A stretch of DNA of 64,000 nt from Rhizophagus irregularis. Lineage: Eukaryota > Glomeromycota > Glomeromycetes > Glomerales > Glomeraceae. The stretch is taken from NCBI RefSeq assembly GCF_026210795.1, contig NC_089431.1, positions 3,534,001 to 3,598,000 on the forward strand, in the 5' to 3' direction. Positions 10,824 through 47,308 of this stretch are shown here, piece by piece. The translations under genes were made by a program, and so were the position numbers. The notes beneath the pieces are model-generated. The model ran no database searches and was not told the DNA's origin. It worked only from the letters and a program-made list of their open reading frames with translations. Numbering within the stretch: the first letter of the stretch is position 1; the number at the start of each line of letters is the position of its first letter.

Positions 10824-10839
10824 AGGTCATAAGAGATTT

Positions 10840-16592: not shown

Positions 16593-16611
16593 ATAAGAAA
16601 TAATTTTCAAA

Positions 16612-17013: not shown

Positions 17014-17396
17014 TGATAATCCTTAAAATCGATAAATTAATCGTGAATGATTGACAAAATTAGAAATCAATGATGATCGACAAATCAAATTAGTTTTTAT
17101 GTTGAACAAACTGATCAAAAATGATCAGCATGAATATGCGACTCAATGCCCCAGAAAATTTACAAAATTTTGTGAAAAAAAAAAAAAAAAAATTTTTTTT
17201 ATCATATATATATTATATTTATTATATAACAAAATAATAAAAGATGATTACATAATAGAAAAGAAAATTATATGGAAGAAGGAGGATTACGAGAATTATC
17301 TCTATTTCTAAGCAAAACTATCATCCCTTCAGCCCTATAGTGTGCAGCATTTCTTTCCCGACGCAACCTATTGCAATTTTCCTTCAAAGCTGAAAT

Positions 17397-17969
17397 TTAC
17401 CGACGAAAAGCAAGATGTTCATTTACTCTCTCATTTTTAAGCCGTTGAATGAAATCGTCACGTTCCTGGATATCATTCAACATAATTTCATTCTCAGCGA
17501 CTAGTTGATACTGTTCAGAATTAGTAAGAGGAAGAGAAGCTTGTTGTTGTTCAACTAATTCGTCACGTGACGAAGCTTCTTGGAGTTGCTCCTGGAGTGA
17601 TGATAATTGTTGTTGCAGTTGTTGAACTTGTTGTTGAAGTTCTTGTTGCACCTGAGATTCTTGAGAAGATTTTATAATCGAAAAATCTTCTCGGACTTGT
17701 ACTTCCTCCTGAAGTTCTTGAACTTCTTGACGTAGTTGAATTATTTCTTCACGAAGTTCCCTGTTTTGAAGAAAAAATTCAGAGGCCACTCGAACTGCCC
17801 TTTGTGATAATTTTTGCGTTTCCTTTCCTTCTTCTTTTTCTTTCTTAGATTTGCGAACAAAAAATCGCTTATTATGGTTTTTTTGAGAACTACATTTATT
17901 TTTCTTTTTAGTTAGTCTGATACGTTCTCTTGGCGTAGATTTCTGGTTATTGTATTTCTTGTATACCAT
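17397..17969 (-). CDS. antisense coiled-coil ORF of the Ty3 element
   Basis: 190 residues on the minus strand starting MVYKKYNNQK. Residues 1-55 are strongly basic (several KKKNK and KSKKEK blocks) and could be a nuclear signal. Residues about 60-150 are Glu/Gln-rich heptad-like coiled coil (LREEIIQLRQEVQELQEE and QQQVQQLQQQL). The element's other ORFs are on the plus strand. Antisense ORFs near the 3' LTR are known in some plant gypsy lineages. This looks analogous, with no evidence of homology. A long open frame in AT-rich DNA with a coherent coiled-coil composition makes it more than a shadow. Function unknown. Confidence 0.65.
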   Translation of the reverse strand: MVYKKYNNQKSTPRERIRLTKKKNKCSSQKNHNKRFFVRKSKKEKEEGKETQKLSQRAVRVASEFFLQNRELREEIIQLRQEVQELQEEVQVREDFSIIKSSQESQVQQELQQQVQQLQQQLSSLQEQLQEASSRDELVEQQQASLPLTNSEQYQLVAENEIMLNDIQERDDFIQRLKNERVNEHLAFRR

Positions 17970-18365
17970 GATGACGAGAAAAGAAAGGAGACGAGAAAAA
18001 TCTTAATTAGGTTACCAGATTTTCAACATTTATGGAAAAAAAACTTACAACAATTTTCTGATGATTTACCAGCCCATCCCGATCCCATAATTCATGATTT
18101 TCTTTTAAATTGATAATGAATTTCTTCCCAGGATCGATGTCACCCGTGTCCTGATCATTTGATGGCCACATTTGAGAAGGCTAATACCTTAGCTTTACAT
18201 GGACTTTGGTTCGTGTCCCTTTCGAGGGCCTACTGTTTTGGTATTACATGGATGACCAGTTTTTTTTCATTTAATAGCGGGTTGGGAGTGAAGTGAAAAG
18301 AAAAGATAAAATTTATTTGGCTTTAATTATTTTTCGTGGGAACTCAAAATTTAGTGAGGGAGATT

Positions 18366-18858
18366 TGATAACGAAGATTATGGCGCAGTAAAAATCACGT
18401 GATTTAAAAATCAGATGATTAATTAGTAGATCAATCATTATGTAATCAAATAATTTTGTAGATCTGATTAACGTTACAATTGTTATTTTTGTTATTTATA
18501 TTATTTATGTTATTTTTATTATTTTTATTATTTCTTTTATTTATTATATTTATTTTATTTACTTTATTTATTTTAGTTATATTATTTTCTTTATATTTTA
18601 TTTTTATATAAATATCTTTTGATTTTTCTTAAGTTAAAGTGTGTGTCAGTGTGTCAGATAAATAGAAAATAGATAGTATAAGTTAGGGATTAACTTGTAT
18701 TAACTATTTAATAAACTCTTATATTAAAAACGAACTGTGATTGTGTTATATTTTGCGTATTGTGTTTTTGCGTGTCTTGCTGATATAAACTACGTTATAG
18801 CTATTGACTCCCTAACGTTTAGTTATAGTTGACAGAGTCTGAGACGGACCTGTTAACA
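18366..18858 (+). repeat. 3' LTR
   Basis: Second copy of the 493-bp LTR, preceded by a purine-rich tract and followed by the ACGT target duplication at 18859-18862, which is also part of the interrupted exon. Confidence 0.95.
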
Positions 18859-32682: not shown

Positions 32683-32728
<46 letters not shown>

Positions 32729-33187
32729 GTCGTCGGGCTGGATGTGGGCCTCGCTACCGCTCCACCCACCTCGGCCTCGCGGCCTCGCAGTACCTATATC
32801 CCCCCTACGGGGCACAGGAATCCCCATATATCCGCCACAATCTGGGACAACATATGGAACAAATATATATACCAAATAACTAGAAAACAATAGAAAAGGA
32901 AGGAATAACGGATATAATGAGAGGGTTGTCCCGGATGTGGCAGATGTGGCAGATGTTTCAGAAAAAATATGAGAGGACATCCCCCCAGAAAAAGTTTTAT
33001 TTTTACCCCCCCAGATCCGCCACATCCGGAACATCTGGAACAAGTCAGGATTCCGTCTAATAATCTATTGGAAGCAGTGAGACAGCAAACCAGGTAAATT
33101 AGTAGGTAAGCCCCTAGAAGGTCTATAGAGCCAGTAAGACCAACCCCGTTCTGCCCCCGTCAGAAAAAATAAGTAATTGAACAATGG
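32729..33187 (+). repeat. left terminal inverted repeat, 459 bp
   Basis: It starts GTCGTCGGGCTGG and ends TTGAACAATGG. It contains short direct repeats around 32930-33035 (CCGGATGTGG, CAGATGTGG, CAGATGTTTC and, inverted, CCACATCCGG), a likely transposase- or terminal-protein-binding cluster. The open frames crossing it are mirror copies in both repeats and are not called as genes. Confidence 0.95.
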
Positions 33188-33230
33188 ATATTGAGAATAG
33201 AGCATATCCAGATAAGTTTAGAAGACAGTA

Positions 33231-33551
33231 CTAATCTGTTTTCCTCTTTTTTGCCTCCTTAAGGCATTTATCAATACACTGTTTACACACGTCATCAGAA
33301 TCTAAGATTTTCTGTCCAAGTTTTTTGCATTGCCGATTGTAAGCCGTCTGCTGTCTTTTAGCAGCGGTTTCTTTCTTTTTCTCCTTAGTCTTCTTCTTGA
33401 TCACCCAGTCTATTCCAGTAAAAGTATTCTTATGCATACCACAAATTGTGCAGTCACCATGCAGCCGGTAACGCCCATTTGTAGTCATATCTTGTATTTC
33501 ACTAGCCGTCTCAGTTTCCTTCTTGCACTTTAGGCAGTAAAAACGTGTCAT
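33231..33551 (-). CDS. small zinc-ribbon-like protein, DUF5679-like
   Basis: 106 residues starting MTRFYCLKCKKET. The N-terminal half has the order YCLKCKKET, then NGRYRLHGDC, then CGMHKNTF. That is two CxxC pairs around a basic core, the arrangement I associate with the small DUF5679 proteins of large DNA viruses, adenovirus-like elements and Polintons. The C-terminal half is Lys-rich with another Cys pair (CKQCIDKC). The family name is from memory and should be checked. It is the first gene inside the left repeat and is transcribed away from the integrase. Role unknown; nucleic-acid or capsid-core binding is plausible. Confidence 0.65.
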   Translation of the reverse strand: MTRFYCLKCKKETETASEIQDMTTNGRYRLHGDCTICGMHKNTFTGIDWVIKKKTKEKKKETAAKRQQTAYNRQCKKLGQKILDSDDVCKQCIDKCLKEAKKRKTD

Positions 33552-33595
33552 TTTAAGATTTGAAGTCTAAAACCATTCCTTTAATTTGTTGTAAT

Positions 33596-34687
33596 ATGTC
33601 ACACTTAGAGAATTACTATAAGTACTACAATCTCTCCGGAGTACCAGCACGAATTCTAAAAGGTGAAGAGCACTACAACCTATACAAAAAGCCCCTAAAG
33701 GAAAAGTCAACAGAACGCCCAAAGGTAATTGTATGGAAACCAAATGCAATACATCAGGCAGATCTTGCAGAGATGCCAGTTGACCCCAAAGGATTCCACT
33801 ATTTTCTCGTAGTGGTGGAAGTTGCAGGAAAGAGAGTTGATGCAGAACCCCTAAAGGATAAGACTGCAAATAGAGTTCTAAACGGGTTTGTCAAAATCTA
33901 CAGAAGAAATCGTATTAAGCCACCAACACACAGACTGGAGACAGACTCCGGATCAGAATTCACTAACGACCAGGTACGTGATTTTTTCCTGAACAGCCTA
34001 GGGGTAATGATGAGGTTCGGAGAGCCAGGAAGGCATAAACAGCAATCTTATGCTGAAAGAGCTATCCAAGCCATCCAAGAACCCCTTCTTAAACGAATGG
34101 TAGCACAGGAGTTGAAAACCGGGGTGACATCCGTGGAATGGTCAGAAGATTTCCATAATATAGTGAGTAAAGTAAATGAACTCTGGCAGAGAAATCCCCC
34201 AGACATTCCGACAGGATCACCCAAAGTGTCAAAAAAGACGGATCTCCTCTCTGAAGGAGCACGTGTCAGAGTCAAGTTAGATGAACCTATCTCAGTACTC
34301 GGTAATAAACTTCACGGAAAATTCCGTACAGGAGACATAAGATGGAACCCAAACATTCGTGTAATCAAAAAAATGATACTCTCACCCGAACAGCCTCCTA
34401 CATATCTCCTTAATGGACCACATGGTCGATTAGGTGTATCCAGATGTGCATATACCCGAAAGGAATTGCAAGTAGTTCCTATTAATGAAAAGCCTCCACC
34501 TGACTCTGTGATAAGAGGACAACCTGAAAGATTTGTTCCTGAGCAGATACTTCGGCATCGCATTAGAAAAGGTCAAGACCAGTATTTGGTTAAGTGGGAG
34601 CGCTATCCAGACACTGAGGCTACTTGGGAACCTGCTGACCGTTTGAAGGAGGATGTCCCTGACTTAATTCGCAAATTTTGGGAATAA
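33596..34687 (+). CDS. Polinton-like integrase with C-terminal chromodomain
   Basis: I start at the first ATG (33596, MSHLENYYKYY), giving 363 residues; the open frame begins at 33560. Retroviral-type catalytic core: Asp56 in HQADLAEMP, Asp117 in ETDSGSEF and Glu154 in SYAERAIQ, spaced D-X36-E. A DNA-binding SH3-like stretch follows, and a chromodomain ends the protein (EQILRHRIRKGQ, YLVKWERYP, TWEPADRL). No clear HHCC finger precedes the core. It joins element ends to target DNA in the nucleus; a chromodomain may steer it to modified histone H3. All three acidic residues are present. It and the ATPase are the only genes here on the plus strand. Confidence 0.93.
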   Translation: MSHLENYYKYYNLSGVPARILKGEEHYNLYKKPLKEKSTERPKVIVWKPNAIHQADLAEMPVDPKGFHYFLVVVEVAGKRVDAEPLKDKTANRVLNGFVKIYRRNRIKPPTHRLETDSGSEFTNDQVRDFFLNSLGVMMRFGEPGRHKQQSYAERAIQAIQEPLLKRMVAQELKTGVTSVEWSEDFHNIVSKVNELWQRNPPDIPTGSPKVSKKTDLLSEGARVRVKLDEPISVLGNKLHGKFRTGDIRWNPNIRVIKKMILSPEQPPTYLLNGPHGRLGVSRCAYTRKELQVVPINEKPPPDSVIRGQPERFVPEQILRHRIRKGQDQYLVKWERYPDTEATWEPADRLKEDVPDLIRKFWE

Positions 34688-34711
34688 AAAAAATAGAAGA
34701 ATTAAAGGGTC

Positions 34712-35386
34712 TTATTTTTTATCCCCTCGATTAGCATCAGGAACTATCGGGATAAAAACATTCTTCCCATCACAGGTAAAGGCTATATGTTCACGTGATT
34801 CATGGACATCATAATTGTAACGTTTCAGACACGTTCGGCTTAACCCAATTTCCCTATGCTTGTAACCACTTAAGACTGCAAGGTCCTCAGTGATAGCATA
34901 ATCAGGGGTAAGTTTGATTGTCACTCCCTTTACCATGCCGAATGTCCTACCTGTTCCTGAAGCACCAGATATGTTATATGTAATACTCTTGTCAATATCC
35001 AACCCTAATTCCTCAGCAGCTTCTCTCTGAATAAAAGACGCATTAGCACAAGTGTCTGCTAAACACTGAATTGCTATTCCATTAACCTCCCCATCCAGTG
35101 CTAAAAGATCTTTAGTATTCTCTAAACGAGCTATGTCAATATCCATAGGATCATCTACCCTGATATCCTCTTCTTGTTCCTCCTCAACTAGGTCCTCCGG
35201 AATCTCTGTGACTTTTCTAGCAGACAATAACTCCTCCTGAAGAATCTCACGGAGTAATTTCCTAAAGTCTGCAGACCTTAACAGGCTTAATAAATCATTC
35301 TTAGTAACAGCTTTTGCAGGTGTAAACTTACTACCAGTAACTTTCACAGGAATCTTAACAGGGGTTGCTTTGCCTTTCAATGGCAC
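34712..35386 (-). CDS. retropepsin-like aspartic protease, -1 frame to gag
   Basis: 224 codons from a GTG at 35386. The first ATG is only at about residue 81, and the frame is open without a stop back to the A9G run at the end of gag, so frameshift expression is the simplest reading. A helical segment (LLSLLRSADFRKLLREILQEE) precedes the protease domain. LADTCANASFI carries the catalytic Asp at residue 111, with Cys in place of the usual Gly of DTG. The flap and second-half pattern (GMVKGVTIKL, HREIGLSR) resembles the Ty3-type protease fold. It would cleave Gag into capsid parts. The Gly-to-Cys change may weaken or modify activity. The stop lies 24 bp from the convergent integrase stop. Confidence 0.7.
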   Translation of the reverse strand: MPLKGKATPVKIPVKVTGSKFTPAKAVTKNDLLSLLRSADFRKLLREILQEELLSARKVTEIPEDLVEEEQEEDIRVDDPMDIDIARLENTKDLLALDGEVNGIAIQCLADTCANASFIQREAAEELGLDIDKSITYNISGASGTGRTFGMVKGVTIKLTPDYAITEDLAVLSGYKHREIGLSRTCLKRYNYDVHESREHIAFTCDGKNVFIPIVPDANRGDKK

Positions 35387-35448
35387 ACTAGAAGAGTTAA
35401 CTGCTGTCTTATTTGGGGACGACTTAAGAAGTTTTGAGATACTCGAAC

Positions 35449-35461
35449 CTACTTTTTTTTT
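35449..35461 (-). promoter_or_regulatory. probable -1 ribosomal frameshift site at the gag stop
   Basis: On the minus strand the last gag codons are TCA AAA AAA AAG TAG. Both A AAA AAA and A AAA AAG are canonical -1 slippery heptamers in the correct phase, and the stop follows at once. A -1 slip enters GTA GGT TCG AGT and remains open into the protease ORF. I did not fold the downstream RNA. Confidence 0.7.
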
Positions 35462-36879
35462 GACCCAACACGAACCATATAGACATCACCATCTTTTTCT
35501 CTCAATTCTACCTTTTCACCAAAACTCGCAGTATCAATGTCCATAGCATCATCATTAAGATCGAGGTTTCTCATTGCTTGGGCCAAATCCAGATCATCAC
35601 GTCTATCTTTAGCCTTCTGAAGTTGTTTTGTAAGTATTTTAGACGTCCCACGTTTATATCCCATAATAAGATCAATAGCATTTTGATGATCATCCAAAGT
35701 CCACTCAGGAGCATCAGGGTCATCACCAACATCATGATCTACATAACCATCATCCCAATCAGGATCCTGAGGATCCTGAACAACACGTCTCTGTGGTTTT
35801 GGTCGAACAGGTTTAATCTGCTGTCTATAGACTGGTGGATTACGAACTGGCCGAGCCTGTAATTGTTTAAATTGCACCTGAAAATTCTTGGTAAGTTCCT
35901 CAGCTTGAGCCTTAAGTAACTCTTGTAATTGTTCTTGAGTAACCCCAGATGACTTTGATGTCAGTACTACAGGTTCCTGTTTTCCTAACGGAGGTTGAGT
36001 TACATCACTGTAATCTGCTTGAAGTCGTCGATTTCTATCTTGTAACCCCAAGCGCATTTCAGCCCTTCTCCGTTCTAAATTTCTCAGATGTTTAACCAAG
36101 TCATCAGGATTAAGATTACTAAACCTTTCTGCTTCAAAAATATTATCAGCCGAAAGACCTCTAAAGAACTGGTCGATAATAAGATCATCAGTTAGTTTTA
36201 GTAATTTTCCAGCTCTCTTTACAGTTCTATAAAATGCATCGACTGGCTCATTTTCCTGATAAAGACTGTTAAAACGGATACGTTTCTTTTCATCTAAAAT
36301 AGTTGGAAATTGTGTTCTAAGCCAATAAAGCGCCTGGTTAGGTTTAATACCTGGAAAAACTATAGAACGATTATTATTAGCAGCAACACCAGCATCTGCA
36401 GTAGCTGGAGCAGCTCTATCTGTCGGACGAGCACCAGCTCTTCCCCAAGCTTTATCTCCACCTATTAAATCATGGGTAGGAATAAATGCTGCTCTAATAG
36501 TTACTAATGCATTAGCTGCATCTGTAGCATGAACATGTGCTTCAGACCCATTTACATAGGTACCTGCATTTGGTCCTCCTGCACCTTCTGGTATTACTAA
36601 TGCTACAAAAGCAGCTAAATTAGCTCCACCTCTTGAAGTAATACCAGAAAGTTCCCAATTTTTTCCTGTAATTTCTCGATCAAACCATTCAGCCGCTTCA
36701 CCAGCCATGCAGCTTCTAAGTATACCCATAGCTCTTTTCCAAGACTCTGGTGGTCCTCCAGCAGCATATGGGTTAAGATTAATAGTATCAAGATAACCCA
36801 TGTAAAGCCTAACAAATGTATCAACATCATCAGTAGCTTTACCCTCAAAAATCGGCAATCCTATCGCAGTGGTAGCCAT
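35449..36879 (-). CDS. gag-like structural protein
   Basis: 476 residues from ATG at 36879. It follows the Ty3-type gag plan: LPIFEGKATDDVDTFVRLY at the N terminus, RSCMAGEAAEWFD, a Gly/Ala-rich insert of about 90 residues (about 80-170), then LRTQFPTI, NEPVDAFYRTVKRAGKLL and FFRGLS, the same motifs seen in the gypsy Gag at 10840-15177. A basic helix (RRAEMRLGLQDRNRRL), a Pro/Arg-rich segment and an acidic C terminus follow; there is no zinc knuckle. The start overlaps the coiled-coil ORF by 19 nt. It ends SKKK-stop on a slippery A run. Role inferred: capsid-forming, in place of the jelly-roll proteins of other Polintons. Confidence 0.75.
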   Translation of the reverse strand: MATTAIGLPIFEGKATDDVDTFVRLYMGYLDTINLNPYAAGGPPESWKRAMGILRSCMAGEAAEWFDREITGKNWELSGITSRGGANLAAFVALVIPEGAGGPNAGTYVNGSEAHVHATDAANALVTIRAAFIPTHDLIGGDKAWGRAGARPTDRAAPATADAGVAANNNRSIVFPGIKPNQALYWLRTQFPTILDEKKRIRFNSLYQENEPVDAFYRTVKRAGKLLKLTDDLIIDQFFRGLSADNIFEAERFSNLNPDDLVKHLRNLERRRAEMRLGLQDRNRRLQADYSDVTQPPLGKQEPVVLTSKSSGVTQEQLQELLKAQAEELTKNFQVQFKQLQARPVRNPPVYRQQIKPVRPKPQRRVVQDPQDPDWDDGYVDHDVGDDPDAPEWTLDDHQNAIDLIMGYKRGTSKILTKQLQKAKDRRDDLDLAQAMRNLDLNDDAMDIDTASFGEKVELREKDGDVYMVRVGSKKK

Positions 36880-37658
36880 ATCGTCTCTAGTGGATTGTTT
36901 AAAAGAGGTGGAGGAGGGTTCAATTGTCTAATTCGAAACCATTGTACCTGAATTCTAAGAGCAGCTATCTGTTGGAAAAGTCTATTTCTAAGTCTCCCTA
37001 ATGTCTGAATCCCAAAACGCACCCTATTATTAGCATGTGCTAGCTGTGCATTAACCTGTCCAAGTTGCGCATTAACCAATACAAGTTGTCCTCCAGTCTG
37101 AGTAGCCCTCAGCCGCCAATGATTTAAAAGGATATTACCACGATTCACAGCATTTTGAGCCTCATTACGATCCCTTACTGCTTGAGTATAATCTGCTTGT
37201 AATACATTACGTTCATGTCGTGCCTGATTACGTTCACCTATAGCCCGTCGACGAAGCTCTACCATAGTATCATAATCTCTTTGCAGGTTATGGTTTTCTT
37301 CTATGAAATTATCATTGGCAGCACGTATAATAACTAATTGACGTTCTAAATTAGTAAACGTTTCATCAAATGCATTTATCTTACCTTGTGCAAAAACTAA
37401 CAAATCTTTTGTAATACCAAGTTCTTCATGTTTTGCTTTACAGCGATACATTAATATATTAATAATATGTTTGATTTGATTATTTGCCTCCTGTATCTCT
37501 GAATCAACAGTTAAACGACCCCTGGTAGTCAATAAATTTGCATGAGCCTTAAGTATTCTAACTAATTCATCATCGTCTTTTTCATTGACCAAGTGTGCAG
37601 GAGGCGGTCCAGTAGGTTCTGAAGGAGTATAAACTGGAATTGGTGTTGATGTCGACAT
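36861..37658 (-). CDS. coiled-coil protein upstream of gag
   Basis: 265 residues from ATG at 37658 (MSTSTPIPVYTPSEPTG). A short Pro-rich leader is followed by an almost continuous helical, heptad-rich region (about residues 28-245) with many Glu, Arg, Asn and Gln, for example QLGQVNAQLAHANNRV. It ends TIWLPLR. The stop overlaps the gag start by 19 nt in another frame, suggesting a shared mRNA with reinitiation or leaky scanning. No known domain is seen; tail-fibre or scaffold-like roles are possible but unsupported. It is divergent from the ATPase gene, with 31 bp between starts. Confidence 0.75.
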   Translation of the reverse strand: MSTSTPIPVYTPSEPTGPPPAHLVNEKDDDELVRILKAHANLLTTRGRLTVDSEIQEANNQIKHIINILMYRCKAKHEELGITKDLLVFAQGKINAFDETFTNLERQLVIIRAANDNFIEENHNLQRDYDTMVELRRRAIGERNQARHERNVLQADYTQAVRDRNEAQNAVNRGNILLNHWRLRATQTGGQLVLVNAQLGQVNAQLAHANNRVRFGIQTLGRLRNRLFQQIAALRIQVQWFRIRQLNPPPPLLNNPLETIWLPLR

Positions 37659-37689
37659 AGTATTTAAACTAAGTTAGAATAAAATTCAA
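37659..37689. promoter_or_regulatory. 31-bp divergent start region
   Basis: Only 31 bp separate the ATGs of the coiled-coil ORF (minus) and the ATPase (plus). The promoters must overlap each other or lie inside the genes. Confidence 0.5.
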
Positions 37690-38913
37690 ATGGATCTTTA
37701 TGTATACAATTTGGACGAGTACACGACTGACTCAAGACAAGGCAATGAGTTTGCTCCATCATGGCCCTTTCGATTAGCCGTAGCAGGTAGCTCAGACTCA
37801 GGTAAGACAACTATGATCATTAATTTGTTAATGGGTAACAAGAAAGCAAAGGAGGATGGTAATCGGTATGTACTATGTGATGCGGTACTTTTAGTTGGCA
37901 GATATCTTGACGAGCCGAAGTGGGCAGTTGTACATGATTTTTTCGAAGAGGAGAAGATCCCATTCACTGCAGTAACCCATAGTGAGATTCCAGAGATTGA
38001 CTCCTTCAACCCTACTCAAGCTACTGTGGTAATCTTTGAGGATCTGATGGATGCACCTAAAAAAATCCAGGATCTCATCACTGGTTACTTTACACATGGA
38101 CGACACAAAAATATTTCATGTATTTATGTAGCCCAAAGATTCTTTGCCATTCCTAAGGCTATTCAAGAAAATGTTAACTACATCTCACTGCATGGAGGTC
38201 ATGGAAGCCTTACAGATACCAAGAGAATCATCCGCCTATATACAGAAGAATCAGAGTCATTAGCACCAGTAATTGATGATCTTACTCTGCAACGTGAATT
38301 TGTAGTGTTTGATCTTAGACGGTCCAAAAGTGATCCACTGTCCATTCGAGTAAGATGGGATACTAGTCTCAGTTCGATTACAGAGCAATCTCAGTTCAAT
38401 CCTAGTTTGATCTCAGTTCAATCTCAGTTTGATCCAAGTTTGAACCCAGTTCGATCTCAGTCTGAACCCAGTTCAATCACAGTTCGATCCAAGTTTAGTC
38501 CCTATGGTCAGAAAGCTGTATTTGAAGCAAAAAAAGGTGGACACTTGATTGAATTTGCTCGGGTATTTCCATCCCCTAAAGAACGTCAACATTTACTTGT
38601 ACCTGGTGTCTTAGCCAAGAATGCAGATACCTGGATTAAATATGTCTTTCGGGAAGCTTATGGACTCTCTGGTAAGACCTTAGGAGCTGACTTTCAGGAT
38701 TTCTTAGCAAAAGTACAGGGTAGGACTGCAAAGACTGAAACTCTGAAAACTGAGAATGTGAAGGAGTTATTCTCCCGATATGAAGCCCTGAAGTCTAGTC
38801 GCCCTCTGGATAATAAACAAATAATAGAAGGTATTGAAGTCCTTCTACAGATCTTTTCTAAGAGCCACATGGACCGTCGAGCATTACAAGTAGGGATTAA
38901 TAGTATCTTGTGA
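37690..38913 (+). CDS. A32-type genome-packaging ATPase with C-terminal extension
   Basis: 407 residues. The P-loop GSSDSGKT is at residues 33-40, and a Walker B VVIFED ends at residues 117-118. YVAQRFFAIPKAIQEN and LHGGHGS follow, as in the FtsK/HerA-related packaging ATPases of Polintons, adenovirus-like elements and poxvirus A32. These motor proteins drive DNA into capsids, so its presence argues that the element once had, or still has, a particle. From about residue 225 a low-complexity repeat (QSQFNPS, QSQFDPS) links to a C-terminal domain (about 275-407) without known match. The 3' end overlaps the convergent ORF 38897-39457 by 17 bp. Key residues are intact. Confidence 0.88.
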   Translation: MDLYVYNLDEYTTDSRQGNEFAPSWPFRLAVAGSSDSGKTTMIINLLMGNKKAKEDGNRYVLCDAVLLVGRYLDEPKWAVVHDFFEEEKIPFTAVTHSEIPEIDSFNPTQATVVIFEDLMDAPKKIQDLITGYFTHGRHKNISCIYVAQRFFAIPKAIQENVNYISLHGGHGSLTDTKRIIRLYTEESESLAPVIDDLTLQREFVVFDLRRSKSDPLSIRVRWDTSLSSITEQSQFNPSLISVQSQFDPSLNPVRSQSEPSSITVRSKFSPYGQKAVFEAKKGGHLIEFARVFPSPKERQHLLVPGVLAKNADTWIKYVFREAYGLSGKTLGADFQDFLAKVQGRTAKTETLKTENVKELFSRYEALKSSRPLDNKQIIEGIEVLLQIFSKSHMDRRALQVGINSIL

Positions 38914-39457
38914 GAATATCAAGTAATTCGTCTGCAGAAGCTCTAAGAATCATAGCACTTTTTTTACGGCCTTCAAAGTCAATCCTTAACATCTTAGCCT
39001 TCAACCCTATTGCTCCTAAAGCACGAGAAGCAAAGTTCTTAGTCATTGGATTACTTATATGATTTACATAGTTCTCATAAAATGTAGTGAAAGGCTCGTC
39101 AATACCATCTGGATATGTATCCCTTAGAAATTGATATAAAGCAATTTCTCCACTGTCATAACCTATGGCTATAAGCTGTTCGAGAAGCCACTTCCTAATA
39201 TCTTCATATGGCTCTCCATCCATAATATTCATATCCAGTTTTTGTGTAAACAATTGTGTAAAGTCCACATTACTTCCCCGACGAATGATCTGAACTAACT
39301 TATCCCTAGCAAGTCCCAAGGCTTGTAGAGGGTCATTCTCATCACTAATCTTCTTTATAATCTGTCTGTATAATACACTGGATAATCCTCTATATGCTGT
39401 TTTTGGAGTGATTACTCCACAGTTTTGGCACTGGTTTATTACGATTGATGTTGACAT
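38897..39457 (-). CDS. hypothetical protein with N-terminal Cys pair
   Basis: 186 residues from ATG at 39457. It begins MSTSIVINQCQNCGVITPKT, a short CxxC start; the rest is helical and mixed-charge (RDKLVQIIRRGSN, KWLLEQLIAIGYDSGE). The C terminus ELLDILTRYY overlaps the ATPase end tail to tail. No family is recognised. Its place between ATPase and the 2C-adaptor-like gene suggests a structural or assembly role, but that is only context. Confidence 0.75.
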   Translation of the reverse strand: MSTSIVINQCQNCGVITPKTAYRGLSSVLYRQIIKKISDENDPLQALGLARDKLVQIIRRGSNVDFTQLFTQKLDMNIMDGEPYEDIRKWLLEQLIAIGYDSGEIALYQFLRDTYPDGIDEPFTTFYENYVNHISNPMTKNFASRALGAIGLKAKMLRIDFEGRKKSAMILRASADELLDILTRYY

Positions 39458-39502
39458 GGCTATCTTTCTTTATGTAAAAAAGAATTATTCAAAATTAAGT
39501 AA

Positions 39503-40156
39503 CTATTCGGAGCAGTCCTTGCACAACTTGTCCGTTAAGTCACTTGGGCTTACAGGCATGAGACATTCCCTACACAACTCAATATTAAGCTCTGCAAGTC
39601 TCGGGGTATGGTCCTCCAAAGTTCGTGGACGACTGGAAGGACCGGAGGAAGGTGTTCCGTTAGTCATATCTTGCTGTAAGATAAAATCATCATATTCATC
39701 TTGGTCAGCCTGAATAGCAGTCCTGATTTGTTGTATATCATTGAAAGTTAACCGCTGCCCATCAAGATTTTCCTCATTATAGCGTGTTTCATTGATGATT
39801 TCCTCTATAAGCGCCTCTTCTTCATAATGGACAAGGTAGTAATTCTCAACTACCTCATAGTCACTCTCAATCAGTCTATGATATGTTCTAGTACCACGTC
39901 GAACATAACGTCCTGTATCTGTATTTAAATATACAGGTTGCTCTTCAGGTGGAGGTGCAGTTTGTCTACGGACAAGCCTTCCATCAATATAATCATGGGA
40001 TTCCATAACTATTCGATTAAAGGTATCTCCACCGATAATAATTGGACGTCCAGTTATAGGGTTAGCTATATAAGGGTAAGACATGTCTTTTTTTCTGTAC
40101 GTGTCTACATACCTAATAGTTTTCTTCAATTTATAATAACCAAGTGACATGGTCAT
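39503..40156 (-). CDS. protein with two NPxTGR-type motifs (2-cysteine-adaptor-like)
   Basis: 217 residues. ANPITGRPIIIGGDTFNRI (about residues 31-49) and LNTDTGRYVRRGTRTYHRL (about 77-95) are two versions of one motif. The pattern, N-x-x-TGR, then G, then T-F/Y-x-R, resembles the 2-cysteine adaptor repeat of large DNA viruses, but lacks the flanking Cys. An acidic helix-rich middle and a C-terminal zinc-binding-like pair (CRECLMP and CKDC) follow. Two ATGs two codons apart (40156 and 40150) are possible starts. In viruses this motif is attached to varied proteins; its function here is unknown. The 5' flank is a 51-bp tandem repeat. Confidence 0.7.
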   Translation of the reverse strand: MTMSLGYYKLKKTIRYVDTYRKKDMSYPYIANPITGRPIIIGGDTFNRIVMESHDYIDGRLVRRQTAPPPEEQPVYLNTDTGRYVRRGTRTYHRLIESDYEVVENYYLVHYEEEALIEEIINETRYNEENLDGQRLTFNDIQQIRTAIQADQDEYDDFILQQDMTNGTPSSGPSSRPRTLEDHTPRLAELNIELCRECLMPVSPSDLTDKLCKDCSE

Positions 40157-40305
40157 CAGTCCTTATCAAAAAATACAAGAATACCTGATGATAAGGTTAC
40201 ATGGTCATCAGTCCTTATCAAAAATGCAAGGATACCTGATGATAAGGTTACATGGTCATCAATCCTTGTCGAAAAAATGCAAGGATACCTGATAAATAAG
40301 TTACT
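40148..40305. repeat. three tandem copies of a 51-53-bp unit
   Basis: The unit reads ACATGGTCATCAGTCCTTAT, then A-rich, then ACCTGATGATAAGGTT; the third copy is more diverged. It begins at the start codon of the 217-aa gene and may hold its promoter. Confidence 0.85.
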
Positions 40306-40632
40306 GGGTTATTGGCCTAGAATGCATTCATGGAAAAACTATGGATTATATTACAGAAAATGTGAACGGAGTTCATGTCACGTGATACCCTGAACAAATG
40401 TGTAGAGTGTCACGTGATTTCATGCGGTACGTAGATCATTTCCTTTTTGGGCGATACCCGTTCCACAAAAAATCGATTTGGTAAGAATGCGTTTGGAACC
40501 CTGTGTAACATAAATTTCTTTTTTCGGTAATTCGGGATTACGCGGTAATGCCGGCCGGATCTAAAAAATATGACTCTGCAGGGTAATTCCTACGAAAGTC
40601 AAGTACAAAATGCTTACTCCTGTTGAGTCCAA
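40306..40632. other. non-coding spacer inside the Polinton-like element
   Basis: This is the longest gene-free stretch in the element. It has TCACGTGAT at about 40378 and 40411 and short GC-rich words (GCCGGCCGG near 40552). No ORF of note. Confidence 0.5.
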
Positions 40633-41019
40633 TCATTCCAATCTCCAAGGATCGCCTCCCCATCTATGTTCACTTAATGCATGCTCTATGGTTTCCCTTT
40701 CCTGGGGGTTCACAACCATCCCATTCCTAAGCATTTTCTCCATAATATAAAGCTGATCCTCGGTGAGGCGGTCTATCCATCTTTTATAGAAGTCATTTAC
40801 ATCTTCAAATGATATCCAGTCAATATTCCCTTTTTCAAACGGCTTTCCAAGAGCTTGGACATGACCAATTGTAATAGCGTAATTTTTCCATCTCTTATAT
40901 GCTTCTTGACGAACCTCCTGCCACCACACACTATCTACTTTACTCGCTGCAATAAGGTCAGTATCTGGGATCTTTGCAACAATGCGTTCGACTATTTCTA
41001 CTGGTAATCGGTCCAACAT
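40633..41019 (-). CDS. F-box-like protein
   Basis: 128 residues from ATG at 41019. The first 45 residues fit the F-box pattern: LPVEIVERIVAKIPDTDL, then SKVDSVWWQEVRQEAYKRW. F-box proteins bind Skp1 and bring a target to the SCF ubiquitin ligase. The remaining 80 residues (WISFEDVNDFYKRW, LRNGMVVNPQ) would be the target-binding part and show no WD or LRR repeats. Fungal genomes are rich in such domains, so host capture is likely. A second F-box-like gene lies at 46415-46774. Its start is preceded by an ATTGAAGAT word about 45 bp upstream. Confidence 0.7.
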   Translation of the reverse strand: MLDRLPVEIVERIVAKIPDTDLIAASKVDSVWWQEVRQEAYKRWKNYAITIGHVQALGKPFEKGNIDWISFEDVNDFYKRWIDRLTEDQLYIMEKMLRNGMVVNPQERETIEHALSEHRWGGDPWRLE

Positions 41020-41112
41020 GATGTTATGTTACTTATACTATAGCCATCTTCAATTACTGTATGCCCATTACAAATGGATAAAAAATATAAACTAAATTCG
41101 TACAGGAGCCGC

Positions 41113-41583
41113 TTATGCAAGAAGTTCTGCTAAGGTTTTCTCAGCCTCATTCATAGTGACAGCTCGCTTTGGGGGACCTGTTAATGAGTCCTTAGTTACA
41201 TTATAATACAACTCGAAGAGGGCCTCAAGTTTGTCTAAAAGAGCTTGTTTATTCTTGTATGATTCACGAATCTTTGCTATCTTAGCAGTATATGCTGCAT
41301 TATCTGGGAAGAGTTTTCTGGCCACGAACTTTACATATGATACAGGAGACTTTGCTGTCTGGATTCTCTTGATATACTTCACATGATCCTGGACAAGGTA
41401 GCTGGTTTTGCTAAACCCAGATACTAATGCGACTACTATAGTGTCTTTCAATGCACGGATAATCTTGAGGACAGTTTCATCAGAGACAATGGTAAACTGA
41501 TTGTGTGATGCATCATAAATAACTTTATCACTAATGCTGTCAGTGCTGTTAATAATGCTTGCTAATTCGGTATATGTTGACAT
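41113..41583 (-). CDS. hypothetical helical protein
   Basis: 156 residues from ATG at 41583 (MSTYTELASIINSTDS). It is helix-rich and basic in the middle (KYIKRIQTAKSP, ARKLFPDNAAYTAKIAKI), with no Cys motif or membrane segment. No family recognised. It lies between the F-box-like gene and the polymerase, transcribed in the same direction. ATTTGAAGATTC lies about 45 bp before the start, similar to the word before two other genes of the element. Confidence 0.7.
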   Translation of the reverse strand: MSTYTELASIINSTDSISDKVIYDASHNQFTIVSDETVLKIIRALKDTIVVALVSGFSKTSYLVQDHVKYIKRIQTAKSPVSYVKFVARKLFPDNAAYTAKIAKIRESYKNKQALLDKLEALFELYYNVTKDSLTGPPKRAVTMNEAEKTLAELLA

Positions 41584-41696
41584 GATTCCTTATACTTTTT
41601 TGTACTTTGTAATAAATAGGAATCTTCAAATTGACTTTACATTCAAGCAAGAAAAAATATATATACCTACTGTAAATCCAACCGCATTCTTGGCAA

Positions 41697-43576
41697 TCAT
41701 GTCCAGATAACCTTGTTTGCATTTTTCACATGGCAGTATCCTGCGGTTTCAAACTTGAGAGCTTTCAATGCTTTGGATGCATTTTCTGGACAAGTGATAA
41801 GTGTAGGACTACTCGGCTGTTCCTCTAGAATAAATCCATCTGTATGGATGCGTCGTACTTTATCCTTATATGGTTCTAATAACTCTGAAGTCGTCTTCCG
41901 TCCATGTGCTAATAAGAATGGAGCGATCCTAGGATACTCACCCTTGAAGGGACTACCTGGGTTTGTGAACTGGAATCGCCACTGGTCAGATCCTACTGGT
42001 ACGATGGAGTCAAGTGTGTGGCCTTCTGGAAACTTGAATGGATCTGTTTGATCTGTGGTGAGTGTCTTGTAATTGCGTTTCCTCTGGCAGAGTGCTCCCC
42101 ATAGTGTATTGAGAACTCTCTTTGCAACACGACCGGCCACGCCACCCTGGTTCTTTATATTGAAGAGAAAGTGGACATACTCACCAAATATTACAGTCCC
42201 AGGAATTCTTGCTTCTCTGTCATATATCAAGGCATTTGGCTTTCCATCCTGGATTAACTGTATATCGAGTCCAAGTTTCTTTGCTCGTTGTAAGTCAATG
42301 AATGTATAGACTCCCCTCTTATTCTGTCGGAAGAGAATGTCATTACCACTTACCTTGCCCTTGGGCGCTCCTGGGAGCTAGCACGAAATAATCCATACAA
42401 GGCATAACCTCTATGGTCTACAAAGTCTTTGAGTATTTGAAACTTACCTTGTCGGATTGGAAAGTTTGCATTTGATTGCTGAATACTTGGATACAAACTT
42501 GTCACGTCGTATTGCCTTCCATAGCCCTTCCATTCGTTGTCTGCCCAGATAAGACCTCCCATCATTGCATCACTTATCCACTCTGCTTCGACTGGGTCAA
42601 GAGGATCATTGGCTGGAACCCCTACACTAAACCGTTCAAAAAGCCAGAGTGCAGTTCTCTTGTACGACCAGTTGTGGTAAGATAAGTCGATTCCTAGACC
42701 GAACTTCTTTGTAGCCTGTAGGAAGGAATCCCGCTCTTCATGGATCCTCTGGTATGTTTCCTCAAGTGTTTCATATATTCCAGTTTTACAATTCTTCTCG
42801 ATAGGGATGAAGGAGTAACTATCAGAGTTCTTACCTTTCTGAAACTGTCCAACTGTAAGAGACTTAACTGTCTTACCATTGTATATTGTTACTACATTAT
42901 TAACCCCATCTTCACGATAAACAAAGGGAGACTTTTGTTTTCTATCTAATTTGCTAGGGTGGAGTCTTCCGGGATTCAGTGCAAGAGAGTAGTGGCCTTC
43001 AGACAGGATAAGTGTTGCACGTCTGTCAGATTTGCTCTTAGAAATTCGAGTGGAATCCCCTACAATATTAAGTGCAAGGCTTCCTGCAAGTTGTTCAACC
43101 TTATCCATATATGAGACTGGAACTGAAGCATCACGATTGAGACCTAATGCCTTTTTGATATACTCGGGCTTTTCGATTGACTTTGGCATTTTAGAGAATG
43201 TGCCGTAGATATATTTCAGGCATTTATACAGGCAATCATTTAGCTTCCCATTGCACCCCCCTGCAACCGGTGGGGCATCTCTCACATAAATTATGAATCA
43301 TTCAAAATAATCAGGGTCTGCATCATCCGGTAGTTGTGCTTCGTCGTAGTGGTCCAAGAGTGAGAAGAGGCTGGCTGGTTGGTTTCCTGATGTCCATCCA
43401 CCGGGTTTCCAGTTTTCATAGGGGAGCAGAATCTGAAATTTATGTGTCGGATACCGGGATTGGAGTCGCTGTCCAAGTCTTGCTATTGCTCCTCTGGAAA
43501 ATCTTGCGCCTGAATACTGTAATTCTTTGATATCCGGTCTTGTAGGTAAAGCACGGACAATCTCTGAATAAACCAT
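41697..43576 (-). pseudogene. family B DNA polymerase of protein-primed type, broken twice
   Basis: Three open pieces on the minus strand read as one polymerase of about 625 residues. 43576-43298 (92 codons, ATG start) is followed in the same frame by TGA (43298-43300). Then 43297-42350 has a Cys-rich start (GGCNGKLNDCLYKCL) and motif A (YDVTSLYPS). The frame then shifts by -1 near 42360, and the last part carries motif B (LNTLWG) and motif C (HTDG). The junction reads correctly in the other frame as LPGAPKGKVSGNDILF. No 3'-5' exonuclease motifs are obvious. It would copy the linear element using a terminal protein. One nonsense and one 1-nt deletion suffice to explain the damage; assembly error is possible. 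Confidence 0.8.
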
Positions 43577-43767
43577 TTGACGTATTTATGAATTGTGTTC
43601 AGTTGTAATATAGGTTTTTTATACAAAAAATATAAGATAACTAAGAAGTGCTTATCTTATTAAAAGGAGTCAATCTTGCTGCATACACGATCAAGATCCT
43701 CTTCATCCCAGTCGTCGATGAGTCCATTGGCGGCTTCCCATTCACGTTCCATATCGGTTTTTGGACG
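43577..43767. promoter_or_regulatory. spacer between helicase stop and polymerase start
   Basis: 191 bp, AT-rich near the polymerase ATG, with ACTGAACACAATTC about 35 bp upstream of it. No ORF. Confidence 0.35.
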
Positions 43768-46194
43768 TTACTCGGGGATCTCTCGTGCTTTACCCTTATT
43801 CATCTTCATAGTTTCATAACCGGAGGTGGTAGGGATAATCTCGGCATCATGATCCTCCTTATATGCTCTTATTAGATCTGTGAGTTCTTTACGGCTAGGT
43901 GTTTTAGGTAAGTACCCATTATATTCTATCCAGTCCTTGAAGCGGTCTACTACCTCCCTAAGGTAGTACTGGTACTCGTCCTCAATACGTGTTGTGGGAC
44001 ATTCCTCTACTTCAAACGCGAGTATTTCCCAGTCATAGTCGTCTGACACGTCTTGATACTTAGCCCATAAATCCTTACCTGTATTGTAGAGATCATTGAA
44101 GACCTGGTTCTTTGAATTCTTGACCCATGGCTTACGATCCCATCGGTGCCTTTCATGCCAAGCCCAGTATGCTCGAGTACCTTCCTTTGGTTTAGGGTCC
44201 CAGTCAACTTCTAGTTCTGTGTCGGGTTCTGGGATAGGTTGCTCTTCAGGAGCTGGTTCTGGGTCAGGCTTAGTGACAGATGCAGAAAATTCTGCGGGAG
44301 ACTCGGGTTGTTGTTCAGAAGCTGGGTTTACAGTTGTAAAATCTGAGTCAGATAGCAAGTCATCTAAAACGTCGTAGTCATCATCAGCTTTAAATGCAGG
44401 TTCCTCAGCAGGCGGCTCATTTTCTTGATCAGGTTCCTCATCAGATAGATAACAGTCCGAGAAGCTATCTATAGGTTCATCAGTATCTGATTCTATAGGA
44501 GCTGGAGATTCCTCAGGAATAGGATCCTCATTGATGACAGGTGCGGGTTTTACCTTCAAGCAATCGGGCTTAAGTGGTACTGGTGGTGGAGTCTTTTTGG
44601 TCTCTTCAGTAGGCTTCTTCTTGACAGGAGCGGGTTTTTCCTCAGCAGGTTTCTCTTGTACGTCTTGTGGATTATTAGCAGGAATGCTATATATATTTGC
44701 CAAGAACTTTTCTAAGGCTTTGGGATCAGATGCGGGCTTCTCGGGAGTTTCTACATCTATTCCTTCTATATTGATTTCATCTGTTTCATGGATCCATTTT
44801 TTGGTGAGAAACTTTTTGTAAAGGTCCTCCCTAGATATGCTGTAAACTCGTGGTGTTGTCTTACCTACACGTATTTTTCTGCTATTTATACCCAACTCAT
44901 TTGATAGGATTCTAGAAGCGTTTATCTTTGATAGGGGTGTAATGCAATGAGTTTCACAGTATGAAGTATATACCCTATAAAATTCTTGAACAGGTAGGTC
45001 GGTTATATGATTTTTTACTATGAGGTAAATGTCCTTTATGAATTGAAATAGGGGTGGGAGAGTTGATATGATGTGATCCTGCTTAGATGTCGTCATAGGT
45101 GGTGGATTCCCATTGAAGTCTGGGTAAGCGTCTGCAATGGCTCTCAAGTAAGCATAGAATGCCTCACTGGCACCTGGGTATTTCATAGCGTCACTGAGTT
45201 TCTTAAAGTAGTTGAGGTCTCCCTTGCGGGATGGTGACACATCCAAGAACACTGTGCGCCTATCGTCATTCTCCACTCTGAGAGCATTTTCATTAGTGAG
45301 TACAATGGTGGATATAAAGTTTTTGTAATGTGTTGGCGTCTTGTATTTTTCATGGATTTCCATTATGTCACCTGTTACCTTATCCTTCAATGATCGATAC
45401 AGATTATTCCACTGGCTTTTTTCTGTAGGCATTTCCTCGAGGAGGAGAAGAACCTTACCTTGTAATTGCCCATTGAAACTTCCAAGAATCGTTTGAGGAT
45501 CACTGGTCTTATAAACAAGTTGAGTACCTAAAACACTACGTTGAATGAAATCTGTTATAATACTCTTACCCCAACCCTGTCCAGATTTCAGGTAGAGAAT
45601 CGAATACATTTTCCTTCCGGCTGCCACACCGGCCAACCACTTTATGATATACTCAGTAAGATTCCAATCGCCTGAACACCAGATATCCTGAATGTGGGAG
45701 AAGATAAATTTAACCGCGAGGTGGGTTGTAGATTCAAAAGTGGATATCGGACGCAGGATATGGAGGAATCCTGGAAAGATATTGAGATAAAGTTGGCCAC
45801 CTAGTTCAAAGATACGGGATTTTTGAGGGTCACAGGTAGCTACACATACAGTACTATATTCGATCATAAACCATTTGTTGATATTAAATTCAACCTTTTG
45901 TGAAGGACCCTGTTCAGATTGTGTGTAAAAGACTTTGGTAATTGGACGGATAAGTTTATTAATATTTTTATCAGGGATGTGCTCGAGGTTTTTGATTTCT
46001 GATCGCCACATGAAGACTCCATGTGGGTTGGAGCAGGGGATAAAGTAACTGCAAAGATAACCTTTAGCTTGATTGAGATCCCTCATATTCTTTGCAGCGT
46101 TAATGAGCCGTTTAAGCTCATCAATACTAAAAGCCTTCTTCTGTTCACCGAACTTGGGGATAACTTGAGCTTGAGTGCTAGTTTGGGCAGTCAT
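43768..46194 (-). CDS. superfamily 3 helicase
   Basis: I start at the first ATG (46194, MTAQTSTQAQ), giving 808 residues. The SF3 core is at about residues 185-335: Walker A GQGWGKS, Walker B VLLLLEE and motif C STIVLTNEN followed by NDDRRTVFLD, where Arg is a likely arginine finger. This type unwinds DNA ahead of viral replicases and is found in Polinton-related elements and parvo- or pox-like viruses. Residues about 490-640 are a Pro/Glu/Ser-rich, probably disordered linker, and a basic/aromatic domain ends the protein (AYWAWHERHRWDRKPW). It is upstream of the polymerase on the same strand. The ATTGAAGATTA word lies about 45 bp before the ATG. Key motifs are intact. Confidence 0.88.
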   Translation of the reverse strand: MTAQTSTQAQVIPKFGEQKKAFSIDELKRLINAAKNMRDLNQAKGYLCSYFIPCSNPHGVFMWRSEIKNLEHIPDKNINKLIRPITKVFYTQSEQGPSQKVEFNINKWFMIEYSTVCVATCDPQKSRIFELGGQLYLNIFPGFLHILRPISTFESTTHLAVKFIFSHIQDIWCSGDWNLTEYIIKWLAGVAAGRKMYSILYLKSGQGWGKSIITDFIQRSVLGTQLVYKTSDPQTILGSFNGQLQGKVLLLLEEMPTEKSQWNNLYRSLKDKVTGDIMEIHEKYKTPTHYKNFISTIVLTNENALRVENDDRRTVFLDVSPSRKGDLNYFKKLSDAMKYPGASEAFYAYLRAIADAYPDFNGNPPPMTTSKQDHIISTLPPLFQFIKDIYLIVKNHITDLPVQEFYRVYTSYCETHCITPLSKINASRILSNELGINSRKIRVGKTTPRVYSISREDLYKKFLTKKWIHETDEINIEGIDVETPEKPASDPKALEKFLANIYSIPANNPQDVQEKPAEEKPAPVKKKPTEETKKTPPPVPLKPDCLKVKPAPVINEDPIPEESPAPIESDTDEPIDSFSDCYLSDEEPDQENEPPAEEPAFKADDDYDVLDDLLSDSDFTTVNPASEQQPESPAEFSASVTKPDPEPAPEEQPIPEPDTELEVDWDPKPKEGTRAYWAWHERHRWDRKPWVKNSKNQVFNDLYNTGKDLWAKYQDVSDDYDWEILAFEVEECPTTRIEDEYQYYLREVVDRFKDWIEYNGYLPKTPSRKELTDLIRAYKEDHDAEIIPTTSGYETMKMNKGKAREIPE

Positions 46195-46414
46195 TTTTTG
46201 TTCTATCAAATCGAGTACTAATTTATAGTTACCTAATCTTCAATTGCCGAATATTTTTCCAAAGATCTGCACTCCTACCAATTTACCCTCCTGTAGTCCT
46301 ATGGTCCTGCGATTCTGCGGTCCTCCGGTTATATCTGGTTATCTTCTAGGGGTAAAAAAAAAAACTATAAACCACGAACCTTTACGACTGCTCTAAATCT
46401 TCCCTTCCCCTTTT

Positions 46415-46774
46415 TCAAACTACATATATCTGAAATCCAAACCGCTCAAGAGCTCCTTTTACTATAGTTAGCTTTTTTCTAGTGTCCGTTAACTCTTTAC
46501 AAGCCTTTTGATACGCCTTCCATTCAAGTTCACGGAGGGTACCCTCCTCCTCCAATGATTGGCCAAGAGCATCGTTTGCTTTTTCCTTCTTTTCTACTGC
46601 CCTGTCGTATGCCTCCTCGGCTTTTTTATGCCGCTTCCAGAGTACTCGTTCAGCTTCGGCTTTCCAGATTGGGCTGACTTCTAAAAGATGTGGCCCGAAA
46701 TTGCTACTTGGAATGTGTTCCAGGATATGGCCTACAAGTTCAGGAATTACTAATACTGCGTGCGGGGTATACAT
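46415..46774 (-). CDS. second F-box-like protein
   Basis: 119 residues from ATG at 46774. IPELVGHILEHIPSSNFG, then EVSPIWKAEAERVLWKR matches the fungal F-box pattern. The rest is a highly charged coiled-coil helix (KKAEEAYDRAVEKKEKAN, LEWKAYQKACKEL) ending ERFGFQIYVV. It may bind Skp1 and dimerise or recruit a target through the coil. It is the first gene inside the right terminal repeat and is transcribed inward. It is not a copy of the other F-box ORF beyond the domain. Confidence 0.6.
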   Translation of the reverse strand: MYTPHAVLVIPELVGHILEHIPSSNFGPHLLEVSPIWKAEAERVLWKRHKKAEEAYDRAVEKKEKANDALGQSLEEEGTLRELEWKAYQKACKELTDTRKKLTIVKGALERFGFQIYVV

Positions 46775-46807
46775 GTTATCTGTCCTTATAGGTTACTTAT
46801 GGTATAC

Positions 46808-47266
46808 CCATTGTTCAATTACTTATTTTTTCTGACGGGGGCAGAACGGGGTTGGTCTTACTGGCTCTATAGACCTTCTAGGGGCTTACCTACTAATTTA
46901 CCTGGTTTGCTGTCTCACTGCTTCCAATAGATTATTAGACGGAATCCTGACTTGTTCCAGATGTTCCGGATGTGGCGGATCTGGGGTGGTAAAAATAAAA
47001 CTTTTTCTGGGGGGATGTCCTCTCATATTTTTTCTGAAACATCTGCCACATCTGCCACATCCGGGACAACCCTCTCATTATATCCGTTATTCCTTCCTTT
47101 TCTATTGTTTTCTAGTTATTTGGTATATATATTTGTTCCATATGTTGTCCCAGATTGTGGCGGATATATGGGGATTCCTGTGCCCCATAGGGGGGATATA
47201 GGTACTGCGAGGCCGCGAGGCCGAGGTGGGTGGAGCGGTAGCGAGGCCCACATCCAGCCTGACGAC
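46808..47266 (-). repeat. right terminal inverted repeat, 459 bp
   Basis: Inverse of 32729-33187, with differences seen at the CCCCATAG/CCCCGTAG site, at AGCCTGACG/AGCCCGACG and in a G run near 46986. No indels. Confidence 0.95.

Positions 47267-47308
<42 letters not shown>

Follow-up and report, generated by a model that had tools for sequence, protein, structure and literature searches.

What forms the particle of a mobile DNA element that carries a packaging-type ATPase and no recognizable capsid gene? The question is raised by a 14.5-kb element of Rhizophagus irregularis, which occupies positions 32729-47266 of the window analysed here (64,000 nucleotides; contig C3, NC_089431.1, 3,534,001-3,598,000) and is embedded in a CAA/CAG-rich repeat. 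Two of its open reading frames (ORFs) resemble the gag and protease (pro) genes of retroelements. From comparisons within the window and from searches of the genome (146.7 Mb, 32 contigs), we think it probable that this is a Polinton-like, self-replicating element in which a retroelement-type Gag-Pro particle module replaces the jelly-roll capsid and the Ulp1-type protease. There is a strong case that a Polinton-like family, together with relatives, carries Gag-Pro where the jelly-roll module would be expected.

Much of the Polinton-like frame had been proposed in a first-pass annotation of the window. The terminal inverted repeats (TIRs) that it described are present; their length is 463 nt each rather than 459, and they are complementary at 99%. 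A 5-bp target-site duplication (TSD) was found here and in 11 of 11 other copies with both outer flanks read, a count that leaves out locus L042, where the far end was read and has no partner flank. A Pfam scan of 15 ORF products of the element bore out the chromodomain integrase (Chromo 62.4 bits, rve 37.7; 33560-34684 +), the A32-type ATPase (Pox_A32 35.4 bits, above cut-off; 37690-38910 +) and the SF3 helicase (DUF5906, which we take to be an SF3 helicase label, 63.7 bits, above cut-off; 43771-46209 -). The ATPase also matched the PHROG family "terminase large subunit" at 6.7e-8, and the helicase matched DNA-primase PHROGs (best 6e-24). In line with the annotation, a jelly-roll capsid, a penton and an Ulp1/adenovirus-type protease are without a Pfam match among these 15 products. 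The longest unassigned ORF in the element has at most 265 aa.

The 476-aa product, previously suggested to be gag-like, reads by its sequence as a Gag capsid whose two halves are separated by about 100 inserted residues, because an N-terminal and a C-terminal part match Ty3-type gags and residues 86-180 do not. Compared with the gag of a Ty3 element in the same window, residues 9-76 gave an hhalign score of 31.7 (maximum of shuffles 19.3; 0 of 100 reach the score), residues 86-180 were unmatched (64 of 100 shuffles reach the score), and residues 181-290 alone were not significant against this single gag (9 of 100). The C-terminal half aligned with a profile of six gags of the same genome, consisting of the window Ty3 gag and five Retrotrans_gag loci, at 59.0 (92.4%), with column-shuffled controls (n = 50) reaching at most 24.7. 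In the PDB, the top match of the gag profile was PEG10 (7LGA), at E 0.012 and, after diverged relatives were added, at 0.0022. Weak Retrotrans_gag matches were present in 6 of 12 relatives (best 0.027). The sole control exceeding 20 in the gag-profile test was the Pro sequence, which scored 27.7 over 14 columns with a common DD-MDID-like motif. Alignment rows (alignments A1-A3 and A5) were chosen for diversity from the best 120 of 193, 156 and 230 homologue hits.

A motif search found no CCHC zinc knuckle in the window gag, pro or the adjoining 265-aa protein, CC265. PPVY, which fits the retroviral late-domain pattern PPxY, occurs at gag residues 348-351 (35827-35838) and in both gags read from a second subfamily, and is not found in all diverged relatives. 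The Ty3 element of the window lies at 10313-18664, 14 kb away; its 300-nt long terminal repeats (LTRs) are identical, so it is a recent insertion, and its 1445-aa ORF holds, by eye, a gag with a CCHC motif, a protease and a reverse transcriptase.

The 224-aa product likewise proved retropepsin-like, with scores above the Pfam cut-off for both Asp_protease_2 (36.3) and gag-asp_proteas (30.7; 34715-35386 -). In the PDB it best matched a UBA-domain protein (E 0.004), followed by DDI1 (E 0.17), and Pro may be of cellular retropepsin-like origin. The protease of the window Ty3 element matched it weakly, 2 of 100 shuffles reaching the score.

Genome searches with gag and with the ATPase, of which the best-scored candidates were listed, gave at least 91 and at least 107 scored matches, respectively, and the gag matches fall into subfamily A, to which the window copy belongs (mostly 86-100%), and subfamily B (about 53%). 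With the A gag as query, a gag lies upstream of the ATPase, divergent and within 10 kb, at 82 of the 102 merged best-scored ATPase loci, and at 96 once a B-gag query is added. Among the matches listed, the ATPase accompanies 83 of 89 merged gag loci; the commonest distances between the two genes are 811 nt in A and about 718 nt in B. Twenty A copies were picked by their gag hits, so that gag is present in them by choice; all 20 also carry CC265, the ATPase and pro, the last at least in part, and 19 carry the integrase (L027 does not). Gene order is identical in the two B copies read. Thus, gag-pro as a separate insertion absent from sister copies, a possibility named in the first-pass annotation, was tested and not found.

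Tree-based counts over gag residues 181-285 in 21 A copies gave 15 nonsynonymous (N) and 39 synonymous (S) changes, a rate ratio (dN/dS) of 0.11 and p 7e-15. Similar counts in 18 copies each indicate purifying selection on pro (p 2e-4 and 7e-6), the ATPase and the integrase. For pro, dN/dS is 0.24/0.16; for the integrase, it is 0.13 within A and 0.07 between A and B. The gag insert evolves fastest (N 61.5/S 13.5; dN/dS 1.5-1.6 within A); it differs from the remaining gag (p 1e-5) and is not significantly above neutral (p 0.088). Between A and B, synonymous divergence (dS) is 1.1-1.7 in gag residues 1-285. It is 0.41 in the tail of gag; DUF5679, integrase, pro, ATPase, the 186-aa protein (P186) and CC265 range over 0.44-0.75, and the 217-aa and 128-aa proteins (P217, P128) are lower still, at 0.18-0.21. 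Because dS is higher there, the capsid part is older than what flanks it, as if exchanged as a cassette. By these sequence criteria, gag and pro are resident, conserved and selected, and they lie with the integrase on one side and the A32 ATPase on the other.

The junction of the two genes suggests how they would be expressed. The window gag ends GGG TCA AAA AAA AAG TAG, and pro lies in the -1 frame, which is open over 257 aa and reaches back across the run of nine A (A9); the first Met of the pro frame is residue 81 of 224, barely ahead of the protease domain. Gag-Pro is probably made by -1 slippage on this run. Among 21 A copies, the run is A9 in 17, A8 in three and A7 in one, and in the A7 copy gag and pro form a single 737-aa frame. 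In the two B copies, the run is A9 in L029, where pro is in the -1 frame, and A8 in L030. In alignment A3, 16 of 20 rows reach the C-terminus, and 13 of the 16 end in KKK or KKR (L029 is among the 13, counted from its own sequence, its A3 row being shortened); the remaining three have KK or KKK at that position and then run on. A chance A-run was considered and rejected: the window gag and three gags of more distant loci (L043, L047 and L048) each have A9 as their sole run of at least eight A, and it is always terminal.

These distant loci extend the association beyond the family. Among the matches listed, a pro search found seven distant relatives (28-32%), all near an A32 ATPase; by manual comparison of the two match lists, six gaps are about 4.4-5.0 kb and one about 11.5 kb. 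Three of the seven (on contigs C8, C14 and, in part, C11) were read, together with another ATPase locus on C9. The C8 element (L046, L043 and L045) has an A32 ATPase (40.6 bits) 41% identical to that of the window. In L043, an 803-aa gag with a coiled coil ends A9-G-TGA, with pro in -1 overlapping the gag stop; its protease matches the Pro profile at 97.9%, and its gag compared with the window gag is not significant (hhalign 3%). At the C11 locus (L044), A9-G-TGA precedes pro too, after a broken gag. The C14 locus (L047) shares its coiled-coil part with L043 (94% over 225 aa) but has a different capsid domain, which matches the window gag over 263 columns (99.7%); this gag again ends A9-G-TGA. 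As read from the two sequences, L043 and L047 display a visible capsid-domain swap behind a common coiled coil. L047 also has an ATPase (31.2 bits) and, by eye, an integrase in pieces only. In the C9 locus (L048), a gag piece matches the window gag at 99.6%, the gag ends GTA AAA AAA AAC AGG TAA, a pro-like ORF follows in the -1 frame, and the A32 ATPase scores 50.4 bits. An ORF past an in-frame stop holds the motif CGICGETGHSKGSC, with zf-CCHC sub-threshold. Gag identity is 26-34% for L047 and L048, and the L043 gag is hard to align.

Other features of these loci may be recorded here. No TIRs turned up when the C8 element, 20.5 kb long, was searched for them. Its polymerase frame (L045:1-3573) has at least 1191 aa and includes an exonuclease, unlike the frames of about 630 aa of the window family, and a Tet/JBP-type oxygenase gene (L046:191-1690, 51.9 bits) lies beside the element. 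The pro-like ORF of L048 (1662-2309) is without a Pfam match and has DSAS at the expected motif; it is perhaps an inactivated protease.

A search with the L048 gag also suggested where such a gag might be shared with retroelements. Right after the set of L048 itself come 30 loci, a block at 41-48% that includes many long frames, and a listed A32 ATPase lies within 15 kb of 0 of the 30; this count leaves out weaker, partial rows, one of which (C4:4012106) adjoins an A32 ATPase. The sole block locus read, L055 (C29:3006100-3007799), combines the motif CSSCGKSGHTKSSC with a DTG protease in a single frame, the CCHC and the protease each being sub-threshold in Pfam; against the element Pro, its protease matched weakly (20%). 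Possibly this locus is a retrotransposon sharing the donor gag. In IMG/VR, neither the gag search nor the ATPase search gave a match, and searching with the ATPase alignment returned one weak locus, 26% identical (L049:5256-5708).

Several observations weigh against the Gag-Pro replacement that we favor. On the window gag itself, Retrotrans_gag is sub-threshold in Pfam (15.0 against 24.1 bits, E 0.029), and when profile A5 was compared with the six Ty3-type gags singly, probabilities ranged from 0.5% to 80.4%. The putative active-site motif of Pro is D-T-C-A rather than D-T-G-A (DTC in A and B, DSC in L043). The length of the A-run varies (4 of 21 A copies, and B copy L030), with homopolymer assembly errors possible, and no stimulatory RNA fold was found downstream of A9 (z 0.87 and 0.32). 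Of the family B polymerase announced in the first-pass annotation, the window copy retains three broken ORFs with weak PolB matches (Pfam, PHROG), although in many sister copies the polymerase frames are open over 624-633 aa. The relatives are imperfect as well. In L043 the integrase is rve-like at a sub-threshold 15.6 bits; the -1 frame of L047 is interrupted before pro; and in L048 an in-frame stop splits gag, the pro-like ORF is unmatched by the Pro profile (0.5%), and rve, at 31.4 bits, is slightly under the Pfam cut-off. Finally, a listed A32 ATPase lies within 15 kb at only 18 of 27 merged gag loci of the L048 set.

Could the same genes be read otherwise? Splicing out an intron of about 90 nt might connect Gag and Pro, the A-run being irrelevant, and a stretch of about 95 nt, GT...AG, does link the CC265 frame with gag in both A and B; public R. 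irregularis gene models use it to fuse CC with gag and pro (P0124, a cluster with 49 members). However, P0048 and P0169, the two B models read, place the gag-pro splice points differently, B does not conserve the donor of A, and the terminal A9 is kept in gags as diverged as those of L043, L047 and L048, so we give splicing a minor though real share of the probability. It is also unlikely that gag-pro is a captured accessory module in a capsidless transposon, with a non-packaging job such as interference with Ty3 or transport of RNA from one cell or nucleus to another. Gags domesticated for work of this sort exist (Fv1, Arc and Ty1 restriction), and this genome is rich in Retrotrans_gag genes, with at least 150 scored matches. 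An account of this kind would agree with the view, expressed in the portion of PMC7805220 available, that some Polintons with no detectable capsid gene, including those of Glomus, lost it for life as transposons. Yet a dominant-negative Gag explains a retained pro and a slippery junction less well than a maturing particle does, and related modules recur near an A32 ATPase in other elements.

That a jelly-roll capsid is present and too diverged for sequence profiles seems very improbable to us. Three small proteins (186, 217 and 156 aa) lack an assignment, and one of them may be a single jelly-roll minor protein, but a double jelly roll (DJR) usually takes about 500 aa or more, and every unassigned ORF is too short for one. 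A genome search with PF04451 (jelly-roll capsid) was silent, as were its controls, and is thus uninformative. Least probable of all is an LTR-retrotransposon remnant, inserted once in the ancestor of the family and carried along since. Profiles place the gag in the family of Ty3 gags, and a Ty3 element does lie close by, but neither an LTR-like repeat (by repeat comparison) nor a reverse transcriptase (by Pfam, over the scanned ORFs) was found inside the element. The module is moreover identically placed in A and B at about 53% gag identity and recurs elsewhere, and its capsid core and pro are under strong purifying selection. A nested LTR insertion was rejected on the same grounds: no such repeat or reverse transcriptase match, a position kept in two subfamilies, and purifying selection.

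Returning to a Gag-Pro particle in a Polinton-like element, one can picture its cycle as follows. Ribosomes, or RNA polymerase, would slip on the A-run to give much Gag and little Gag-Pro; Gag would assemble a shell, which Pro would mature. The linear DNA of the element would be copied by its own family B polymerase and helicase, the A32 ATPase might help to bring this DNA into or onto the Gag particle, and the integrase would insert it with a 5-bp duplication. We infer, in short, that Gag shells package DNA with an A32 motor. Had an ancestor exchanged a jelly-roll capsid for Gag-Pro, shell genes would have been traded across two virus worlds that are unrelated, a rare event. More tentatively, and with rather less confidence than in the element itself, we can imagine in Glomeromycotina a clade of double-stranded DNA (dsDNA) elements with Gag capsids, a frameshifted retropepsin and linear dsDNA loaded by an A32/FtsK motor, joining two realms and swapping its capsid as a cassette. 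Capsid type is the main marker for sorting viruses into realms, and the A32 motor is regarded as tied to jelly-roll shells. If the reading is true, a stable, selected Gag-Pro replacement beside an A32 motor means that motor and jelly-roll shell are separable, and Gag-Pro would offer an answer to the apparent lack of a capsid gene in Glomus Polintons.

The features of the element are collected in Table 1. CC265 overlaps the start of gag by 19 nt and is about 40% identical between subfamilies A and B. A 51-nt repeat in four imperfect copies (40117-40323) lies between the genes for P217 and P128.

Table 1. Features of the Polinton-like element, in window coordinates
Feature	Position	Strand	Basis
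TSD, 5 bp, ACAGC	left copy 32724..32728, right copy 47267-47271		flank reading
Left TIR	32729..33191	+	repeat comparison
DUF5679 protein, 106 aa	33231..33551	-	Pfam 62.7 bits, above cut-off
rve integrase, chromodomain at C-terminus	33560..34687	+	Pfam above cut-off
Retropepsin-like protease (Pro), motif DTCA, 224 aa	34712..35386	-	Pfam, profiles
gag, 476 aa	35449..36879	-	ORF list, Pfam, profile comparisons
A9 run, last gag codons (TC-A9-G-TAG)	35453..35461	-	pro in -1 frame
gag residues 190-278, C-terminal capsid-like part	36046..36312	-	PEG10, Retrotrans_gag match
gag residues 86-180, insert	36340..36624	-	unmatched in window Ty3 gag
gag residues 9-76, N-terminal capsid-like part	36652..36855	-	collinear with window Ty3 gag
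265-aa protein (CC265), coiled coil by eye	36861..37658	-	ORF list
A32-type packaging-like ATPase, 407 aa	37690..38913	+	Pfam, PHROG
186-aa protein (P186)	38897..39457	-	without Pfam match
217-aa protein (P217), 2-cysteine adaptor-like motif	39503..40156	-	2C_adapt E 0.001, sub-threshold
F-box-like protein, 128 aa (P128)	40633..41019	-	F-box 16.7 bits, sub-threshold
156-aa protein	41113..41583	-	Pfam scan
Family B DNA polymerase, three ORFs (broken)	41697..43576	-	weak matches
SF3-type (DUF5906) helicase, 813 aa	43768..46209	-	Pfam, PHROG
119-aa ORF	46415..46774	-	ORF list, Pfam scan
Right TIR	46804..47266	-	repeat comparison

How does the element compare with known systems? With Polintons/Mavericks (Polintoviricetes) it shares long TIRs, an RVE integrase, a probable family B polymerase, an A32/FtsK-type ATPase and a 15-kb scale. 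It differs from them in having Gag and a retropepsin, with the DJR major capsid protein (MCP), penton and Ulp1 protease undetected by Pfam, and in its SF3-type helicase and 5-bp TSD; Polintons make a 6-bp TSD. Since it departs from classical Polintons in three features, namely TSD length, a DJR capsid (by Pfam) and the Ulp1 protease, we call it Polinton-like. Polinton-like viruses and virophages resemble it in their helicase, packaging ATPase and integrase at a 15-kb scale. According to the text available from PMC10120064 and PMC11071308, they carry an MCP, a minor capsid protein and a cysteine protease. Glomus intraradices Polintons are named in the available part of PMC7805220 as being without a detectable MCP. 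In the accessible sections of PMC4028283, nine MCP-less Polintons are described that also lack the protease and the ATPase; unlike these nine, the present element retains its ATPase. Papers on R. irregularis transposable elements (PMC8647823, PMC11075540) mention Mavericks, in the portions available, without linking them to gag. In the titles and opening abstract lines listed by full-text literature searches, with subscription journals mostly outside their coverage, there was no report of gag in a Polinton-type element.

On the retroelement side, the element shares Gag capsid homology and a retropepsin with Ty3/Gypsy elements (Metaviridae) and retroviruses. Some retroviruses likewise have an A-run and a -1 frame between gag and pro; the Ty3 TSD is 5 bp, as here, and chromoviruses also carry an integrase chromodomain. 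It differs from all of these in having TIRs, a DNA polymerase, a helicase and an A32 ATPase, without LTRs or a reverse transcriptase match. The window gag differs from Ty3/Gypsy Gag in being without a zinc knuckle, a feature common but not universal there; the CCHC motif is present in L048 and L055. Among PDB sequences, the Gag profile best matches PEG10, a domesticated Gag capsid, but unlike PEG10, the Gag described here belongs to a mobile DNA element that has a polymerase and an ATPase of its own.

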